A stretch of DNA of 64,000 nt from Mugil cephalus (lineage: Eukaryota; Chordata; Actinopteri; Mugiliformes; Mugilidae), in assembly GCF_022458985.1 (NCBI RefSeq), contig NC_061781.1, positions 7,923,501 through 7,987,500 of the forward strand. The letters run 5' to 3'. How positions within the stretch are numbered: the first letter of the stretch is position 1; the number at the start of each line of letters is the position of its first letter. Positions 1,564 through 13,956 of this stretch are shown here, piece after piece. The notes under the pieces are model-generated. The model was given only the letters and a program-made list of their open reading frames with translations, searched no databases and had not been told where the DNA came from. A program made the translations under genes and the position numbers.

Positions 1564-4500
1564 GTAAGTTCAGCTGTCAGCTCCTGTTACTTTGGAGAAA
1601 CAGAGCAATGTTGTATCATCGTTTCATCTTAAGTTATGACACACTAAAGGTATGATGTAGTGCTTATGTAGTGGAACAGTAAACCAATATGAAGTCTTAC
1701 TACAAAAATGTTAATGATTAGACCATTAAATGAATAATTCAAAGCTGTTTTTATATTACCCACTTTAACAAATTGCACCAAGACTTGTGCTTATTACCTG
1801 ACGTAATTTTTTCTCCTTAGTTTTAGGAGAATCATGATTGATGTAATGAGGAATAACAAAACAAAATAAATAATAATTGCATAGCTAGTTTGATAGCTAT
1901 GCTGTGCTGCCCTCTGCTGGCTTCAGAGTGAAATTGCATAATATATTTACTAAGGCTTACTGTATGTGGCCGTGACCCATAGGACAAGTAGTTACAGAAA
2001 ATGAATGAAAGAAAGAATAATGATGTAGCAAATTACATTCCGAAATTATGCAGAGCACTTTATATTGATTGAAACATCCCAAAGATGTACTTTGAATAGC
2101 CTTACAACCAATGAGGTCCAAACTGTAACTTGTACTGTGATCAGATACAAACTTCACGATACATAAATAAATCACTGCCATTTAGGTAAGAAGGCATTGG
2201 TGGAAGACACTGTGTGCTTTTAGTTTATAAAAATGCAGCTAGTAAAGGGATGCATTTGCTTTGTCGTGCTTGTGTCTAACAGCCGTGTGTCTCTTCTCAT
2301 CCAATCAGAACCAGCTACAGATATCCCGTTATTGGTCCCTGAACTGCCTCAGCTTCCTGTTCCTCATCGACCCAGCACTGATATTCTGGATGTTCCAGAG
2401 TCCGTCAATGACAAAATGTAAACATCCATGTGAAGATGGAAATAATTGACCTACCAGCTTATGTTAAAAAAGCCTTGAAACAGTTTTCTTTGTATATGTA
2501 TGCTGTGTATTTGTTTTTATAACACACATTTTTATTTCTTCTTCCATGTCCAGCTTTGACTACAACCATGTCCACTTCGCTGGTACCAGCGGCCAGAGCC
2601 AACCAGGCCAACACGGTCAGCATATCTACACAGAGTATCAGGGTCTAGGCCCCAATAATGGACTTTATGGCCCCTACAATGGACCCAAAGAAGGCCAGAG
2701 ACCCACGCTCAGAGAACCCCTGGTTTATATTCCTGTAGCAGGCCCAGATGGAAACAGAGTGCCCTTAGTAAAGGTGTGTGACTTAAACCTGAAGTACCTC
2801 TTAGATGTTTTAATGCTGCTGTAAAAGATTATGTTTCCCCAGTGTTCTGTGCAAGTAACTTAACATCTGGAAATACAGCATGTGTTTGCAAAACTATGTG
2901 ATTCATCTGCAATAGATTTGTGTTTGGATAAAAACACGTCTTCCTGTTTAGGTGAGCGACGGCCCTCTCCCAGGTCTTGCGTTTGGTTTCCCTGACAACG
3001 AGACAGATCTGCCCCAAGAAGCGCAGACAGTCACAACCATCTCTTGGCAACCTGTCCCTCAAACGTCAGAGTATGAAGTGTCCTGCAATCCCATTACACA
3101 CATGGAGGAAAAGGGCTTCCAGGTACAGACGCACTTCAGCATCCACACATGTTCGCTACTAGAGAAGGACTCGTGCTCACTGTGTCTTTCTCTGTACAGA
3201 TGCGTCTTCCAGGCACCTCCAACAGCGCCACCCTGATTGGACTGACATCTGGAGCTTCGTATAATGTTATAGTGGAGGCTATGACGGGTGGGGCTAAAGA
3301 GAAGGTTCTGGAGGAAGTTGTAACTGTTGGCAATGCTGGTACGTTCATCCACAGTGAAATAAACCATTTAATCACAGGAAAAAAAAAGTTTTATAGTGAA
3401 ACATGTTCACACAAATACTAAGATGCACCTCAAGTGAAGACTTTATCAATCATTTCCGTTCTTTTTTTCCCAAATCCTTAGTTCCAGGCGACGTCCCCGT
3501 TACCACCAACCGAGATGTGTGTTACGACACGTTCACACACATCTACCACGAGGTGGGCTCAGAGTGGGAGCGCATGTCTGAGACGGGCTTCAAGCTGTGG
3601 TGCCACTGCCTGGGGCTGGGCAGTGGTCACTTTAGGTGTGATTCATCCAGTGAGTGGCTTATTAACCCCCATCCCATCATGCTTTGCAGAAACACACCAT
3701 GGAATTGGGAAAAAATAATCCAGTAATTCTATGTGATATACTCACAAGGAATTGATGTGTATTTACTGTAAATAATTACAACAGTTTACCTTATGCACAT
3801 TATAAATTCCCTAGCTACAGTTCATAAGCCATAGAATCATCTTCTATGTGCAGCAGCACGCAGTAATAAAATTGCCAGCATGGGCAGCATTTATAAATGG
3901 ATATTCACATTTTCAACTTTTTGACTCGCTTATAGTTATCTATGCTACTTTGCTGTATTGTATATGTTAGGACTCAGTGTATTAAATAAATTCAAGATAA
4001 AGTCGATAGTGCTTAGAGAATATAAATCTGCACATGCCGACTATAAAAACTTCACAATAAGAGCACAGAAAGCTAAGGTCAGCTTAGTGGTCAGTCATAC
4101 TCTCAGTTATTTGTATTGTCCATGGTTGTCCAGCGCTAACATGACAATACAAGAACTAAGATCACCAGCCAGTGTGTCATTGTCATGTGTTTATCGTGTG
4201 TTCACATATGGACTAGGTGCCACATGTTGGAAACACATTGTTTTCAAATGAAGATCAACATCAGTTTCTGCATCACTATGTAGATTGTTTTATAGATTTT
4301 TTTTCTTGGCGCTGTGATTTACACTGTAGAGAAATCAGTATAGCATGGGAATACTACTACACTTATTCTGCTCTGAGAAGTGGGAAGGTTTGAGTTTAAT
4401 TCAGCTGCTCTTTACATTTATTAAAGAACTCTTCTTTCATTTGCCCACCTCAATCTTCTTCCTCCTTACTGTTCGCCGTCTCTCGTTTTCACCCCGTCTA

Positions 4501-5498
4501 CGTCTCTTCTTTGTGTGTGTGTCTCGTTACTCCTCTGCTCTTTCCTCCGCCTCTGTCCCTCTCTCTGCTACTCCTCCCTTCTACAGAGTGGTGCCACGAC
4601 AACGGTAATAACTACCGTATTGGAGAAAAGTGGGATCGTCACGGTGAGAACGGTCACATGATGAGCTGCACCTGCCTGGGCAATGGAAAGGGAGAATTCA
4701 AATGTGAACCTCGTAAGTACAGTCTTGCACAAACCTGTACCACTTCCTGGTTCACACACACTTGAATGGAGCATGTCAGATCTCAGGCAGGGATGCTGTT
4801 GATCTTTATTAATCCGGATTCATTCTCCAGATGAGTCGACGTGTTATGACAATGGGAAAATGTACCAGGTTGGAAACCAGTGGCAGAAGGAATACCTGGG
4901 GGCCATCTGCACGTGTACCTGCTACGGAGGACAACAGGTGACAAAATCTCTCTGTGCACACAACACACCTGAAAGCCGTCTGAATGCATGTCCACCACAG
5001 CGCGGCTCTTTTACACAAAGTAACTTTTCCCTCTTCCTTTTTAGGGCTGGCGATGTGAGAACTGTAAAAGACCAGGAGGACAGACTGATGTGGATGCTGA
5101 CCTCCTGCAGCCCGTTCACACAGACGCCTTTGACCGGTACAGAGAAAATGCTCTACGCAAACTGGTTAGTGTCGCACCTCTTTCCTCTACACTCGTTATA
5201 ATGAACTATGACTAAAACAAGCCAGTAAATCAACAGTTAATCTATACGAAAATGACAAAAGTCAGCACCTGTTTTTTAATGGGGCACGTGAATGGAAAAG
5301 TTTCAGCAGGGACATCCGTTTAGTTTGTAGCTTGAAGCTAGGAAATATGTTAATACAAATAACCACGAAAAGCTAATTATTAAAACTTTTTCTCCATTTT
5401 CCTTCTGTCTTCATCTCTCTGTCCCCCAGAACATCCAGTGTCCGATTGAATGTTTGAGACCAGAGCTGCTTGCAGATGCTCAGAGCCCCCTGGAGTAG
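1..5498 (+). CDS. fn1: Fibronectin, C-terminal part (5' end outside window)
   Basis: Secreted multimodular matrix glycoprotein that binds integrins, heparin, fibrin and collagen; only the C-terminal third is here. Coding exons, all with GT-AG borders and matching phases: 1-190 (open at left), 375-462, 551-736, 859-948, 1184-1375, 1474-1563, 2309-2417, 2554-2773, 2952-3122, 3200-3338, 3482-3649, 4587-4712, 4831-4937, 5045-5164, 5430-5498 (TAG 5496-5498). Modules in order are III-12, III-13, III-14 (two exons each), the variable region, III-15 (two exons) and type I modules 10, 11 and 12. Diagnostic stretches are KEINLAPD and SGLM in III-12, SPPRR in III-13, EWERMSE in I-10, [13 protein letters not shown] in I-11 and [11 protein letters not shown] in I-12. 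The tail keeps CPIEC, whose two cysteines form the interchain disulfides of the dimer. The RGD module III-10 lies upstream of the window. Teleosts often carry two fn1 paralogs; I cannot say which this is. Confidence 0.97.
1907..1920 (-). promoter_or_regulatory. CTCF-like motif in an fn1 intron
   Basis: Read on the minus strand, the 14 bases are CCAGCAGAGGGCAG, matching every position of the consensus CCASYAGRKGGCRS. It lies in the long intron between III-14 and the LDV exon. CTCF binding there, and any role in V-region splicing or in insulation, is inference. Confidence 0.4.
2309..2773 (+). other. fn1: fn1 variable (IIICS/V) region exons with LDV motif
   Basis: Two exons (2309-2417 and 2554-2773) lie between III-14 and III-15. 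The first encodes [12 protein letters not shown] followed by DILDVPES, which aligns with the human CS1 segment EILDVPS, the integrin alpha4beta1 recognition site. The second encodes a Gly/Pro/Gln/Tyr-rich stretch ([10 protein letters not shown], then [12 protein letters not shown]) resembling the low-complexity rest of the V region. The first exon is 109 nt and the second 220 nt, so skipping either one alone, or both, breaks the frame. Length variants would need internal alternative splice sites. Confidence 0.8.
4440..4586 (+). other. Long polypyrimidine stretch before fn1 exon I-11
   Basis: Nearly 150 bases rich in C and T precede the acceptor of the exon at 4587, in a 937-nt intron. It acts at least as the pyrimidine tract of that acceptor; its length is unusual but no other function is visible. 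Confidence 0.5.
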
Positions 5499-6710: not shown

Positions 6711-6997
6711 GCTGCTACTAGTCTGTCTGTTTGGAGAGAATGTACCTGGCTATTTCTTGGTTTAGGAACCAAGATATACAGATATATTTTGTACCTCAAC
6801 TCCAGTAACCAAAGGTCCTGGCTGAACTTTTTAGGAACTTGATCGACTGAAGGAAAGTATGGGCTATTATCCAAAAAGGAAGGCAACCAGACTTGGAGTT
6901 TTGAGAAGATGTTTTGCTGCTTATCCAAGTAGCTTATTCAGTTCTAAGGGAGTGGTGAGAAGTTAAGGTTTAAATAGGAAACTGTAGGTAAAAGCCC
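6711..6997. other. Intergenic spacer fn1-umps
   Basis: No exon or recognisable repeat is seen between the fn1 poly(A) site and the start of the duplicated block. The spacer is under 300 bases; both neighbours are on the + strand, and umps transcription starts in the duplicated promoter further right. Confidence 0.5.
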
Positions 6998-7129
6998 ATC
7001 AGAAACATGCTTGACTTATTTCTGTTAACAACCAGATAATTATGCAACTATTGTTCTGTTTGTCCCTGTCCCCTTTCCCTACCTCACTGACCTGCTCCAT
7101 CGCCACAAACCATCCCCAGCCTCCTTCAT

Positions 7130-7375
7130 CTGATGCAAACCTCCTTACTCCAGCTCTCTGGACCAAGCACCAAACCTGGGGTGACAGAGCCTTCTCTGCA
7201 GCTGCCCCCTCTCTCTGGAACTCTCTACTCAAACACATCCGTGACTGTACAGACTTGCCCACCTTCAAATCCCTGACAGAAACACGCCTGTTTAAAATTG
7301 CTTTTAATGTTAAGTTTTATATTTTGTTTATGTAAAGTGTCTTTGGGTACTTAGAAAAGCGCTTCTTAAATAAAA
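7130..7375 (+). mobile_element. L2-type LINE 3' fragment, first copy
   Basis: Translation shows WGDRAFSAAAPSLWNSL followed by LPTFKSLTETRLF, the typical C-terminal tail of fish L2/CR1-like retrotransposons. It is followed by a short 3' end that runs into an ATT microsatellite, as such elements do. Only the last part of ORF2 is present. Exact family is not determined. Confidence 0.75.

Positions 7376-7426
<51 letters not shown>
7376..7426 (+). repeat. (ATT)n microsatellite at LINE 3' end
   Basis: About 17 uninterrupted ATT units directly after the L2-like 3' terminus. The homologous tract in the second unit (about 9217-9240) is shorter. Confidence 0.95.
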
Positions 7427-7549
7427 GGTCAGAAGCGCCAGTGTCAAAGGCTGAATGAATGCGGTTGAAAGTTCCTGGGGACAGAAGTCCAGACCCTTGA
7501 GATTGCAGATTGCTACCAATACTTTTAAATCTGCGATGATCTGTCGCTT

Positions 7550-7676
7550 TTATGTTGAAGAGGCGGAAGTGCGCACGTACTACGCGCATGTCACGCATGC
7601 GCGCTTGCACCCCTGGAAGCAAGAGACGGAGTATCTCAGAAGTTAAGTCGAGTTAAGGCTCCTCTGCGAAATAAAA
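7550..7676 (+). promoter_or_regulatory. Promoter of the upstream umps copy
   Basis: GC-rich, TATA-less sequence just before the first ATG. It holds an ETS/GABP-type site (GCGGAAGTG, near 7563-7571) and an NRF1-like CGCATGCGCG at 7594-7603. The second copy (9395-9500) keeps the ETS site but has a 15-base deletion that removes the NRF1-like motif. Such sites are typical of housekeeping promoters; activity is inferred. Confidence 0.5.
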
Positions 7677-8968
7677 ATGACGAACGTTTGCGTTGACAGT
7701 TTAATCCTGAAGCTCCACGAGGTGAACGCGGCGAAGTTTGGGGAGCACAAGCTGAAGAGCGGCATGATGGCACCAGTTTACATCGACCTGAGGGTTCTTG
7801 TGTCTCATCCAAAACTCATGAACCAGGTAAACACGCGTTAGCTCCATCGCTGTGATTGATAGTGATGGGCATTCCGGCTCTTTTTAGAGAGTGTGTGCAA
7901 GACATGGGTGGTGGGTCCATTTCAGGTTAATTGCTTTTGTTATGTTAGCTGCATTGTCACTAAAACAGCAAACCACTTTGTTTTCTATGTCCTACTCTTT
8001 TGCCACTTTGTGGCAGCTCCTCTGCTAAAGTCTCAGATGCGTGTCTGTCACTGAACTCAAAACAACTCTTACGACCGGCAGTTTGCACGGGGGTATTTTA
8101 TTTTGAAAATCCACCGGATTTTCTTTGTTTTTTCTGTGTCTGGCTTCCGTCCACTCGAGGTGGTCTGTGTAAATTGACGCGTGCTTCATAATTTTTAATT
8201 AGTCACAGTAATACCGTATACCTACTCCGGCTTCCTCCCACCTCCAAAGATATGCTCGTTGTGTGAGTGTGAATGGTTGTATGTCTCTGTGTTAGCCCTG
8301 CGATAGGCTGGCGACCTGTCCAGGGTGTACCCCGCCTGTCGCCTGATGCCAGCTGGGATAGGCTCCAGCAACCCCCGCGACCCTAGTGCAGGACTAAAAT
8401 GTGGAGACGGTATGAAGGTATCAAAATTTGGATACCGCTCATCCCTAATATACATATATATTGATTTACAGGTTTCAAGTCTCATCTACCAGCGGGTGCA
8501 AGAGGAGGGACTGCAGTTTGTCTCTGTGTGTGGGGTTCCATACACAGTGCTGCCTCTGGCCACAATTATCTGCTCCAGGCATGAGCTACCCATGCTCATC
8601 AGGCGAAAGGAGGGCGAGGACTACAGTGAGTCGGGCTCGACTGGTCAACCTTCAAAATGAGAACGTCACCTTGCATTTGCAAGTTTATCTGCAGAAACTG
8701 ATGGAAATCCTGTACTCCTGGGACAAAGCGGCTGGTGGAGGGCTCATTCCGTGAGGGGGATACCTGTCTGATCATTGAGGACACGGTGACCAGTGGCAGC
8801 AGTATCCTGGAGACAGCTCAAGTGCTCTACAAAGAGGGGCTGAAGGTGCACAATCAAACATTACAGTCGTGATAATCGCACGATATTGGTGCTTAACAGT
8901 AATGGACAGAGAACAAGGTGGTGTAGAGATGTTGGCCTCTCCGGGAATCAGGCTTCATCCCATCATCT
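7677..8968 (+). pseudogene. Partial, broken duplicate of umps (exons 1-3 and part of 4)
   Basis: Exon 1 (7677-7826) and exon 2 (8472-8625) are open with GT donors and encode the start of the OPRT domain (YIDLR, VCGVPYT, MLIRRKE). Exon 3-like sequence at 8721-8845 is open and the same length as in the intact gene, but the base pair before it is TG, not the AG acceptor kept at 10275-10276. Exon 4 survives only as 8902-8968; its acceptor and first 20 or so bases are deleted, and the copy ends at the duplication joint. Conserved residues have changed in exon 2 (RH for TN after CS, and E for K before DY). A full enzyme cannot be made from it. Exons 1-2 could still splice into the downstream gene. 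Confidence 0.85.
8221..8400 (+). mobile_element. tRNA-headed fish SINE-like repeat, partial
   Basis: Shares the blocks CTTCCTCCCACCTCCAAAGA, GGCGACCTGTCCAGGGTGTA and GATAGGCTCCAGCAACC with other copies in this window. It lies in intron 1 of the upstream umps copy and is absent from intron 1 of the intact gene, so it was inserted after the duplication or lost from the other copy. Confidence 0.7.
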
Positions 8969-9045
8969 CCATCAGAAACATGCTTGACTTATTTCTGTTA
9001 ACGACCAGAAAATGCTACTCTAAATCATGATACTCTATACCCAAA

Positions 9046-9240
9046 CACATCCATGACTGTACAGACTTGCCCACCTTCAAATCTCTGACAAAAACACGCC
9101 TGTTTAAAATTGCTTTTAATGTTAAGCTCAGCCTTTTGTGTTTTCAGTGTACTATTTTATATTTTGTTTATGTAAAGTGTCTTTGAGTATTTAGAAAAGA
9201 GCTTCTTAAATAAAATGTATTATTATTATTATTATTATTA
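9046..9240 (+). mobile_element. L2-type LINE 3' fragment, second copy, with ATT tail
   Basis: Duplicate of the tail at 7240-7375 carried along by the tandem duplication. It is shorter at its 5' side and ends in an (ATT)n run of about 24 bases. Confidence 0.75.
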
Positions 9241-9394
9241 TGAGTGGTGCTCTAACGACACATTATAGGTCAAGCGCCAGTCTCAAAGGCTGAATGAATG
9301 CGGTTGAAACTTCTTGGGGACAGAAGTCCAGACCCTTGAGATTGCAGGTTACTACTAATACTTTTGAATCTGCGATGATCCGTCGCTTTTATGT

Positions 9395-9500
9395 TGAAGA
9401 GGCGGAAGTGCGCACGTACTACGCGCGCTTGCACCCCCGGAAGCAGGAAACGGAGTATCTCGGAAGTTAAGTCGAGTTCAGGCCCCTAAGCGAACTAAAA
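9395..9500 (+). promoter_or_regulatory. umps: Promoter / 5'UTR of the intact umps gene
   Basis: GC-rich, TATA-less. Holds the ETS/GABP-type GCGGAAGTG and a second GGAA site (CCCGGAAGC) shortly before the ATG at 9501. It is the homolog of 7550-7676, minus 15 bases. Confidence 0.55.
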
Positions 9501-12500
9501 ATGGCTAACGTTTGCGTTAAAAATTTAATTCTGGAGCTCCACGAGGTGAACGCGGTGAAGTTTGGGGAGTACAAGCTGAAGAGCGGCATGATGGCACCAA
9601 TTTACATCGACCTGAGGGTTCTTGTGTCTCATCCAAAACTCATGAACCAGGTAAACACGTGTTAGCTTCATCGCTGCGCGGCTAATTGACGTAAGAGCCA
9701 CCTAACGCGAACTACTGCGAAATACGCCCTCGTGGCAGTACCCAAAGTCACATTTAAACAAACAAACAAAAATCGCTTGAAAATGTAACTTTCTCTGTAT
9801 TCAAATGTGTATTGACACACACGTGGAAGTTATTGCATGAACAACTAGCTGTCACAGCCCCCCCTGATTTACAGGTTTCAAGTCTCATCTACCAGCGGGT
9901 GCAAGAGAAGGAACTGCAGTTTGACTCTGTGTGTGGGGTTCCATACACAGCGCTGCCTCTGGCCACAATTATCTGCTCCACGAATGAGCTACCCATGCTC
10001 ATCAGGCGAAAGGAGGCCAAGGACTACGGTGAGTCGGGCTCGACTGGTCAACCTTCAAAATGAGAACGTCACCTTGCATTTGCAAGTTTATCTGCAGAAA
10101 CTAATAGACATACTTTGGACAGCCCTGCAGGTCCTAAGCAGACCTCCTGAACCTTAAGACTGTATTTTGCACTTGGGGGCTCTGTGTGTTGAAATGTTTG
10201 ACTGTACTGGACTGTAGTAGTTGGTCAGGAGTTTCAGATTATGTGTCTTTAACAGTCCCATGAAATCCTGTTCTAGGCACAAAGCGGATGGTGGAGGGCT
10301 CGTTCCGTGAGGGGGATACCTGTCTGATCATTGAGGACACGGTGACCACTGGCAGCAGTATCCTGGAGACAGCTCAAGTGCTCAACAAAGAGGGGCTGAA
10401 GGTGCACAATCAAACATTACAGTCGTGATAATCGCACGATACTGGTGCTTAACTACTCTCCCTCCAGACTGCGTGAGATTCTCAAGGGATGTTTCTGTGT
10501 TTGTTCCAGGTGAATGACGCCATCGTGCTCATGGACAGAGAACAAGGTGGTGCAGAGATGTTGGACTCTCAAGGAATCAGGCTTCATCCCATCATCCCCT
10601 TGTCCAAGGTGCTCGACGTGCTGCAGACTGCCGAACGCATCGACGCCCAAACCGTCCGAAGTGTCCGCAAGTTCATCCAGGAAAATAATACTTTTAGGTA
10701 CAGATACTTTTTATCTTTAATTTTTATCAGCAAGTCCATTCGCTGATAAAGATCCGTGACCCTAGTTTTACGTTGGTGAGAGAGTTCATCGGTTGGCTGT
10801 TCAGACCCAGTACATGAGAAGAGATCCTAAAGTGACAGGTACAAATGGTACATGCAATCCTTTTGGACATCTAATCTGACCATTCAGATACACAACTATG
10901 ATTCCCAGAATAGTTATGTCCTTAAATGCAAGTGCAGGATGTGTGCTCAGTTGGCCATTGGCTGTAGTCTTGAAGTGTTCAAGTACAAATTATTCGCCCA
11001 GACACTGGCAACATGAGGTGACGTCACAGTCGACTTTCGTTGCCGGCGGTTCTTTGATGTGTCTATACCTTCTCTGCAAGCAGATGAAAGTGTTACTCTA
11101 CAGTTGTTGCATTGTCTTTCAGCCCCAAGAAGGAGAATGATAACAGCACCCCCACCCCCAAGAAGCAACGTGTGGAGCAGGAGCTGAGACTGAGCTATGC
11201 GGACAGAGCCAAGCTACCAAGTATGTGGTCTTGGACAGTTCACACTCGCTGGTCGAGTCTGTCTCGGTTTGCGTGAAATGGTTTACTTAATTCTAAGATT
11301 ACAACTCGGTGTCAGAAACTCCATCTCAAACTCCATTCATACATTTTATAAGCTCCCAGTGAGTTATCAGCTGGTAAAATTACTGCCACAAATCCAGTGA
11401 GTGCGTTTAGCACAGCAAAAATAGCATAGTTTTGATACTGAGCTGTCCAGTTCTGAGCTATGTAGGTTGTTTACAATATTCCTTTTGTTTTGCAACTTTT
11501 CTGTACATGTAAAGGCAAATCCACTGTGAATGCAAGGGCATTTCTTGTCGAACCAGAGTACAGGTCTGAACACACCCATAGTCATCTAACCTACTTGTAT
11601 AAACAAGCTAAAATAACACTTTGTCTGCAGATGTTCACCCTGTGGCATCGAAGCTGCTGAACATCATGGAGGAGAAGCAGTCCAACCTCTGCGTTTCTGC
11701 TGACGTGACCAGCAGCGAGGAGCTGCTCCAACTCGCAGATCGTCTTGGTCCGAAGATCTGCATGCTGAAGACCCACATCGACATCCTCGAGGTAGAAGGG
11801 GATCAAGCCAATTTGGTGACATGGAGATCTTTGTCAATACAAATAAACTGAAAACATTGACATGTGCGCTAACAGGACTTCACAGGGAACTTCTGCGAGA
11901 AACTCCAGGCCTTGGCTGAGAAACACAACTTCCTCATCTTTGAAGATCGCAAGTTCGCCGACATTGGGAACACAGTCAAGCATCAATATGAAGGTGAAGA
12001 GGTTTAATGAATTCTGTAACTAGTTGTTAAATTGCATTCCAAGTGAACAATCAAAGCAGGCTAAACGTGCTTATGTGTGTGTTCTCCAGGCGGCGTATAT
12101 CGGATCTCATCATGGTCCCACATAGTGAATGCTCATGTGGTGCCGGGGCCCGGCGTCGTGAAGGGTCTGAGCGCAGTAGGAAAACCTCTGGGCCGAGGAT
12201 GTTTGCTCGTAGCTGAGATGACCTCGCAAGGCTCACTGGCTACCGGTGAATACACAAAAGCATCGGTAAGCGAGTCTCTGCTGTCCACATGTACTCCATG
12301 CTGACATTGTCGACGTCGGTCAGTTTATAGCTGTTTTCCCTGAGACGTGTTGTGTGTCTTTATAGCTGCACATGGCAGAGGAGCACTCGGACTTTGTGAT
12401 TGGATTTATCTGTGTCTCTAAGATCAGTCAGAGGCCGGGGTTCATCCACATGACCCCTGGAGTGCAGATGCAAGCTGGAGGTACATTTCACTCTATTTGC

Positions 12501-13956
12501 TTCCCTGCAAATGTGCTGATTTATATTCACAGCTATACAGTATGCTATAATGTAGGGTTAATCTTCGAAATCTTGTGTTTTTTAAAGGGGTTCAGCCATG
12601 GTAAACTCGTTCATACAATATATGCATGCCTACACGTATTTCTGTGGTCTTTCATTTCTGGGGCGCTGTGTGTCTTAATGAGATGGAGCCCATACACCAG
12701 TGCTTCTCAAACTTTTTTTTGGTCACGCCCCTCGCACCACAGCAAGTACAGTATCGACTAACGATAGTGATGTTGCATTCACTTTTGTACAGTAAGTCCT
12801 GTCCTAGAATGGAGAGAGCCTTGTTGGAGAGACAGGCTGTCAGCCTCAATGGAATTCAACTAGTCATAATCAAGGAGCTGTAGGTTGGATGCCTCTGTGC
12901 TTTATCTGTGGGACCTCTCTCCTACTATTTGGTGAAGAGGATAAGAGAGAATATCTTGTGCAACAGTTTAACCTCTGTATTTTTCCAACACACACGTATA
13001 GAATAATATAATAATAGATTTATTTATTATGTAGTGTACATTTTAAAAGGCTCTCATTACTTATAAACAAGCATCACTTGAGGTGTTTTTTCCTTTTTCA
13101 GGTGATATAAAAGCAGTGTGTTTTTTCTGAATGAACGGGACAGAACTCGGCTATACTAGAGCACCCTTGTTGAGTAGTCGGTCTTTAATGTGACCCAGGA
13201 AGCATTGTGTGTTCACACAACAAAGGGAATGAGATCAGATCAATCAAATGCGTCCTGAGTTATATTGTTTAATTTTTAATCCATGTGCTAAAATACAGAT
13301 ATAACACGTCAACAGTGTGTAACCATATGTACACTAGATGGATTGAGATAGGTAAATACTTAATTGATCACCAAGGGGACATTCAGGGCGTCTTGTCACT
13401 CAACCACAGTACAATAGAATAAACAAGACAAAACGGGGTCAGCTATAAACGGTATAAAATGCTATGAAATCATGGTAAAATGGACATCCCCAGGGTAAAA
13501 AGGTCTAGTTAAAATTTTAAAATAAATGGATAACATGTAGCTATGAAGCTAGCTCACAGAGACTGCACAAATTCAGCTCAGGTTGGGAGCACTGGCTAGC
13601 ATACTGCTGTCTTGTATCTCTTTCTGTTGTCATGTCTCTTCTTCAACACAAGGTGGTGCTATAGGACAATAAAATACTTCAAGCCCTCCTTCATTATGTC
13701 CATTTATTTTCCATCGCCATTCCTCACCTGTTTCTCCCATCGCTCTCTGTTTACAGGAGATTTGCTGGGACAGCAGTACACCACCCCAGAGGAAGTCATC
13801 TACAACAAAGGCTCTGATGTCATCATTGTGGGACGAGGCATCTTGGAGGCCCCTGATAGGCTGAAAGCTGCCGAGTCCTACAGAAAGTCGGGCTGGGACG
13901 CTTACACAAAGAGCTTGAACCAGTGTCCAATAGGAGCCAATGGGTTGCATGTGTAG
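9501..13956 (+). CDS. umps: Uridine 5'-monophosphate synthase (OPRT + OMP decarboxylase)
   Basis: Cytosolic bifunctional enzyme of the last two steps of de novo pyrimidine synthesis: orotate plus PRPP to OMP, then OMP to UMP. Exons: 9501-9650, 9875-10028, 10277-10401, 10510-10697, 11123-11220, 11631-11791, 11876-11993, 12090-12265, 12366-12480, 13757-13956; all GT-AG, summing to 1485 nt (494 residues; human about 480). OPRT motifs: [30 protein letters not shown], and the PRPP loop [12 protein letters not shown]. Decarboxylase motifs: [13 protein letters not shown], the catalytic [22 protein letters not shown] and IVGRGI. The exon at 11123 encodes the linker, rich in charged residues. Start chosen at the first ATG, giving MANVCV. 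Oddities: a tail about ten residues longer than human after AYTK, AEMTS where human has AEMSS, and CVSK where human has SGSR. The last intron (1276 nt) is by far the longest. Confidence 0.97.
12690..12745 (+). mobile_element. hAT-like terminal sequence in umps intron 9
   Basis: CAGTGCTTCTCAAACTTTTT followed by GGTCACGCCCC resembles the terminal inverted repeat of hAT-Charlie-type non-autonomous elements. I did not find the matching opposite end nearby, so this is a fragment or chance resemblance. Confidence 0.35.

Follow-up and report, generated by a model that had tools for sequence, protein, structure and literature searches.

Partial gene duplicates are commonly lumped with pseudogenes. 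According to one review, they account for 21% of 290 young gene pairs in C. elegans and for 76% of the duplications segregating in 15 lines of D. melanogaster (PMC3449122). The same review presents human SRGAP2B-D, which consist of the first nine exons of SRGAP2, and credits the truncated protein SRGAP2C with a function (PMC3449122). As for tandem duplications in Drosophila yakuba, increased expression was reported for 24 of 76 chimeras (PMC5460883).

We analysed a stretch of 64,000 nucleotides from Mugil cephalus (GCF_022458985.1, contig NC_061781.1, positions 7,923,501 to 7,987,500), called here the window. It contains umps, which serves the final two steps of pyrimidine synthesis and whose 5' half is present twice in direct order, as an upstream unit (U1) and a downstream unit (U2) that runs on into the complete gene. 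Like the partial duplicates described in that review (PMC3449122), it is a copy of only part of an ancestral gene and sits next to a parent that is intact, and like SRGAP2B-D it consists of 5' exons duplicated without the 3' part. U1 has no apparent new terminal exon or function, and it is set apart from SRGAP2C by its missing splice acceptors and by its place directly in front of the parent gene (PMC3449122). The likeness to D. yakuba is that tandem duplications cutting through genes can move promoters and exons to new contexts; the fly chimeras segregate in populations and were studied by RNA-seq, whereas U1 is diverged, sits within one gene and is known from sequence alone (PMC5460883). The locus thus looks like an ordinary partial tandem duplication, with no departure from that known kind. 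No report of a umps duplication in fish was found in the literature searched, which left most subscription papers outside its reach.

The parent gene is complete, and its product matches the pyrE and pyrF domain models (orotate phosphoribosyltransferase, OPRT, and orotidine-5'-phosphate decarboxylase) above the cut-off, the first part also matching human OPRT (2wns). All nine of its introns are GT-AG.

9501..13956, plus strand: complete umps, ten exons, 494 codons and a stop, exon borders placed by hand
9501-9650, 9875-10028, 10277-10401, 10510-10697, 11123-11220, plus strand: umps exons 1-5
11631-11791, 11876-11993, 12090-12265, 12366-12480, 13757-13956, plus strand: umps exons 6-10

A first-look, non-exhaustive search of the genome (634.8 Mb, 24 contigs) placed all eight OPRT protein matches at this locus, between window positions 7677 and 10698, and both exon-2 DNA matches here too, in U1 and U2. 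No second umps elsewhere was found among these two DNA and eight protein matches, and this is apparently the genome's single umps locus. The region upstream of U1 has one or more exons coding for a fibronectin type I domain (4400-4765), and the gene concerned is probably fibronectin. The gene order over 4400-45051 is fibronectin type I exon, umps, Ets-domain gene and CDK5 activator gene. Human UMPS is presumably on a chromosome other than that of FN1, and if so this order would be a fish arrangement.

Comparison of the whole window with itself by BLAST recovered the two units as five collinear direct pieces of 85-96% identity. Chance similarity is excluded because their E-values range from 3e-13 to 0.

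6996..8970, plus strand: U1, the upstream partial copy, a broken 5' half of umps (self-comparison and global alignment)
8969..10599, plus strand: U2, the copy running on into complete umps (self-comparison and global alignment)
U1 6996-7040 and U2 8969-9013, direct: piece 1, 96%
U1 7220-7852 and U2 9032-9676, direct: piece 2, 85%
U1 8462-8711 and U2 9865-10114, direct: piece 3, 95%
U1 8704-8897 and U2 10262-10453, direct: piece 4, 95%
U1 8902-8970 and U2 10531-10599, direct: piece 5, 93%

Both units derive, in direct order, from a single ancestral stretch. In the global alignment, each contains the last portion of an interspersed repeat, followed by an L2-like tail, the promoter and exons 1-3, with both ends of intron 1, parts of introns 2 and 3, and some of exon 4. 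An earlier, sequence-only reading had proposed just such head-to-tail sharing, from the L2 tail through exons 1-3 into exon 4, and had asked for a self-alignment of 6.9-10.7 kb; our comparison confirms the proposal. The limits given there, 6998-10620, were roughly right in extent, and the homology that we measured ends at slightly different points.

The units meet at a novel joint.

6900..7050, no strand assigned: interspersed repeat holding the left breakpoint, with many genomic matches at 78-86% (40 scored of 1262 candidates)
8968..8972, plus strand: tandem-duplication joint, the middle of exon 4 fused to left-breakpoint sequence with 2-3 shared bases (sequence and global alignment)

The meeting point is 8969-8970, where CATCATCTCC is followed directly by ATCAGAAACATG. 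In U2 the sequence on the exon-4 side is CATCATCCCCTTG, and that of the left breakpoint is AAAGCCCATCAGAAAC, so that the two ancestral breakpoints have two bases in common (CC), or three if a T is a later change. The left breakpoint (6996) lies inside the interspersed repeat at about 6900-7050 and the right one inside exon 4. The sequence-only reading, which had described a joint in mid-exon 4 with only a few shared bases and preferred end joining to recombination between long repeats, is thus borne out on the first point and offers the better fit on the second, given the near-absence of shared sequence. Replication-based template switching would fit the joint too, and either route probably accounts for it better than recombination between long repeats. 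We rejected the latter on the shortness of the shared sequence and on the position of one end in a repeat and the other in exon 4. A retrocopy origin of U1 is ruled out by the presence of introns.

Since their formation, the units have come to differ by 66 substitutions in 1131 reliably aligned bases (5.8%), plus several large indels; this count omits columns outside the named blocks, chiefly the forced alignment of intron 1, and all aligned columns give 77 of 1242. If 2-4 substitutions accumulate per billion sites each year, 5.8% would correspond to roughly 7-15 million years, as an order of magnitude only. Both units contain repeats.

7070..7398, plus strand: L2-like 3' tail of U1, repeat status computed
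9032..9240, plus strand: L2-like tail of U2, 5' part absent, AATAAA at 9209 (global alignment and comparison with genomic copies)
7859..8452, no strand assigned: interspersed repeats in U1 intron 1 (40 scored of 3606 candidates)

The tail was computed to be a repeat; its name, L2, is taken over from the earlier reading. Intron 1 is almost entirely unlike between the units. In U1 it is mostly filled by pieces of three interspersed repeats (7859-8065; 8069-8222 plus 8395-8452; and 8223-8397, nested within the second), none of which has a counterpart in U2 in the window self-BLAST, and the U2 stretch is 188 bases long. One repeat piece of U1 intron 1, 8297-8369, recurs inverted at 22310-22238 with 88% identity and has many genomic matches. 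In the tail, U2 is without the 5' part of the L2-like element, some 170-200 bases that U1 and another genomic copy (L008) retain. Conversely, a 28-base stretch is absent from the U1 tail and was lost there, because U2 and L008 both have it. Decay thus affects both units outside the working gene.

These differences bear on the possibility that the duplication is an assembly artefact, with two haplotypes, or a contig joined wrongly, placed in tandem. Had haplotypes been merged, one would expect near-identity and the presence of the rest of the gene as well, whereas the units carry different large deletions, and their joint falls in mid-exon with almost no shared sequence. Because of the 5.8% divergence, the repeat-filled intron and the several large indels, merged haplotypes are very unlikely. 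We rejected haplotype duplication on these grounds, and an artefact of any such kind keeps only the slightest probability.

As for its coding potential, U1 is broken at specific places.

7677..7826, plus strand: U1 exon 1, 50 open codons, donor GTAAAC intact (splicing and frame check)
8472..8625, plus strand: U1 exon 2, open, with all nine of its differences from U2 non-synonymous (block comparison)
8721..8845, plus strand: U1 exon 3 relic, acceptor AG lost (global alignment)
8898..8901, plus strand: four U1 bases standing against 77 in U2 (10454-10530, covering the acceptor of intron 3 and bases 1-21 of exon 4)

Intron 2 measures 95 bases in U1 and 248 in U2, and no AG precedes exon 3 in U1; further on, a loss of about 75-77 bases has removed the acceptor of intron 3 together with 21 bases of exon 4. 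With these two acceptors gone, U1 alone cannot make a working OPRT domain. It has the make-up of an unprocessed pseudogene, with introns 1-3 partly kept, the acceptors of exons 3 and 4 lost and coding disabled. Read-through of intron 2 would nevertheless give an open product of 112 codons, and U1 lies directly upstream of U2 on the same strand, with a single plus-strand AATAAA, at 9209, between the two start codons. It is conceivable from these features that U1 encodes a short, truncated form of OPRT or gives rise to a non-coding RNA regulating umps as a decoy or by transcriptional interference on the U2 promoter. However, such a protein would lack the second half of the OPRT domain and the U1 exons show no visible constraint, so that this idea has only a slight probability.

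No net constraint is visible in the comparison of U1 and U2 coding sites. The units differ alike at coding (29/498) and non-coding (37/633) sites. The coding differences comprise 24 non-synonymous and 5 synonymous changes on about 356 and 142 sites, which fits the neutral site ratio (p 0.13) in a pairwise comparison that takes the two branches together. The non-synonymous rate is similar to that of the promoter and 5'UTR (p 0.87). It does not differ significantly from the synonymous rate alone (p 0.21) or from all silent blocks together (13/327, p 0.13). A comparison with synonymous sites and the starts of introns 2 and 3 only gave p 0.016 but left out the ends of intron 1 (3/38) and of intron 2 (3/16). 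Positive selection on U1, considered in view of the 24 non-synonymous changes among 29 coding differences, was dropped because the tests with all silent blocks, like those against the neutral ratio and against synonymous sites alone, are non-significant. Introns 2 and 3 begin with shared sequence (8626-8702 and 8846-8899) that is near-identical, with 1/77 and 1/54 differences, and exon 2 has 9/154; this contrast is likewise non-significant once every silent block is counted. The changes affect 23 residues, 3 of which fall outside the alignment with human OPRT; at the other 20, the human residue matches that of U2 in 7 cases, that of U1 in 3 and neither in 10. One of the U1 changes replaces Lys99 by Glu, Lys99 being the second lysine of the sequence RRKEAKDYG, which we take to be part of the catalytic loop of the OPRT enzyme family.

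The lesions and the equal divergence of coding and non-coding sites make U1 most likely a decaying pseudogene, and we consider it probable that U1 is a 5' partial-duplicate relic of umps, with U2 as the working gene. Some observations run counter to this. U1 is not visibly rotting everywhere, since its exons 1-3 contain no in-frame stop in the ancestral frame and the CpG density of its promoter equals that of U2. If U1 alone decayed while U2 stayed constrained, non-synonymous differences should be rarer per site than silent ones, and the point estimate runs the other way (24/356 versus 5/142), albeit non-significantly. The three sites at which the human residue sides with U1 against U2 also count against the pseudogene reading.

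The promoter of U1 is still CpG-rich.

7433..7676, plus strand: U1 promoter and 5'UTR, rich in CpG; 15 bases at an NRF1-like site (one mismatch) have no U2 counterpart
9272..9500, plus strand: U2 promoter and 5'UTR

The CpG observed/expected ratio is 1.21 at 7540-7840 in U1 and 1.22 in the U2 counterpart, against 0.52 for the window, 0.09 for the upstream flank of U1 and 0.31 for its L2-like tail; U2 intron 1 is also high (1.14). Between 7433 and 7835, both copies retain 20 of 25 CpGs, versus 15 of 28 elsewhere in the unit, a difference that is non-significant (p 0.08 and 0.17). Where U1 has 7584-7602, U2 has 9422-9423, leaving 15 extra bases in U1, of ambiguous placement, that overlap the NRF1-like sequence ACGCATGCGC at 7593. 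Flanking GCGC repeats suggest that U2 lost these bases, and the altered promoter may be that of the working gene itself. In a motif scan made without a chance control, a CCAAT and the NRF1-like site of U1 had no U2 counterpart and two ETS-like sites, each with one mismatch, occurred only in U2; the motif balance is therefore not clearly in favour of U1.

It is tempting to speculate that U1 supplies umps with a live alternative promoter and first exon, and this is possible because its promoter is CpG-rich, its exon 1 is open and the exon-1 donor matches the phase of the real exon 2. Writing e for U1 exons and E for those of U2, both e1-E2-E3-E4 and e1-e2-E3-E4 read through, and such transcripts would encode full-length UMPS with a slightly different N-terminus. 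However, U1 exon 1 bears no sign of constraint (8 non-synonymous and 2 synonymous differences from U2), and the evidence from CpG keeping and motifs is equivocal. In addition, U1 exon 2 retains its acceptor, the join e1-e2-E2 is frame-shifted with stops, and e1-e2-E3 alters residues conserved to human. We therefore regard such a role as rather unlikely. That the U1 promoter has actually taken over part of umps transcription after U2 lost the 15 bases with the NRF1-like site, with U1 exon 1 spliced directly to U2 exon 2, seems doubtful; it would give this core pyrimidine-synthesis gene a first exon and promoter specific to the lineage. From the anatomy, new promoter activity or chimeric transcripts arising from U1, which the earlier reading had anticipated, may occur.

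Under the pseudogene reading that we prefer, a tandem duplication at ancestral umps copied very roughly 2 kb, from the interspersed repeat that precedes the L2-like tail to the middle of exon 4. The ends are joined at 2-3 bases of microhomology, and the repair route is presumably one of those considered above. The downstream unit would have continued as the working gene, driven by its own copy of the promoter. The upstream one, presumably freed from selection, carries intron-1 repeats that U2 lacks and has lost two splice acceptors. Transcripts from the U1 promoter would mostly be dead ends, either stopping at the AATAAA at 9209 or splicing out of frame, and a minority might join U1 exon 1 to exon 2 of the real gene.

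The locus offers a clean 5' partial tandem duplication, with both copies and the joint preserved, at what is apparently the sole umps locus. Automatic annotation pipelines could fuse the U1 exons into umps. The interest of the two units lies mainly in the spare promoter, which might still be in use, and its fate beside the parent gene can be tested with ordinary RNA-seq.
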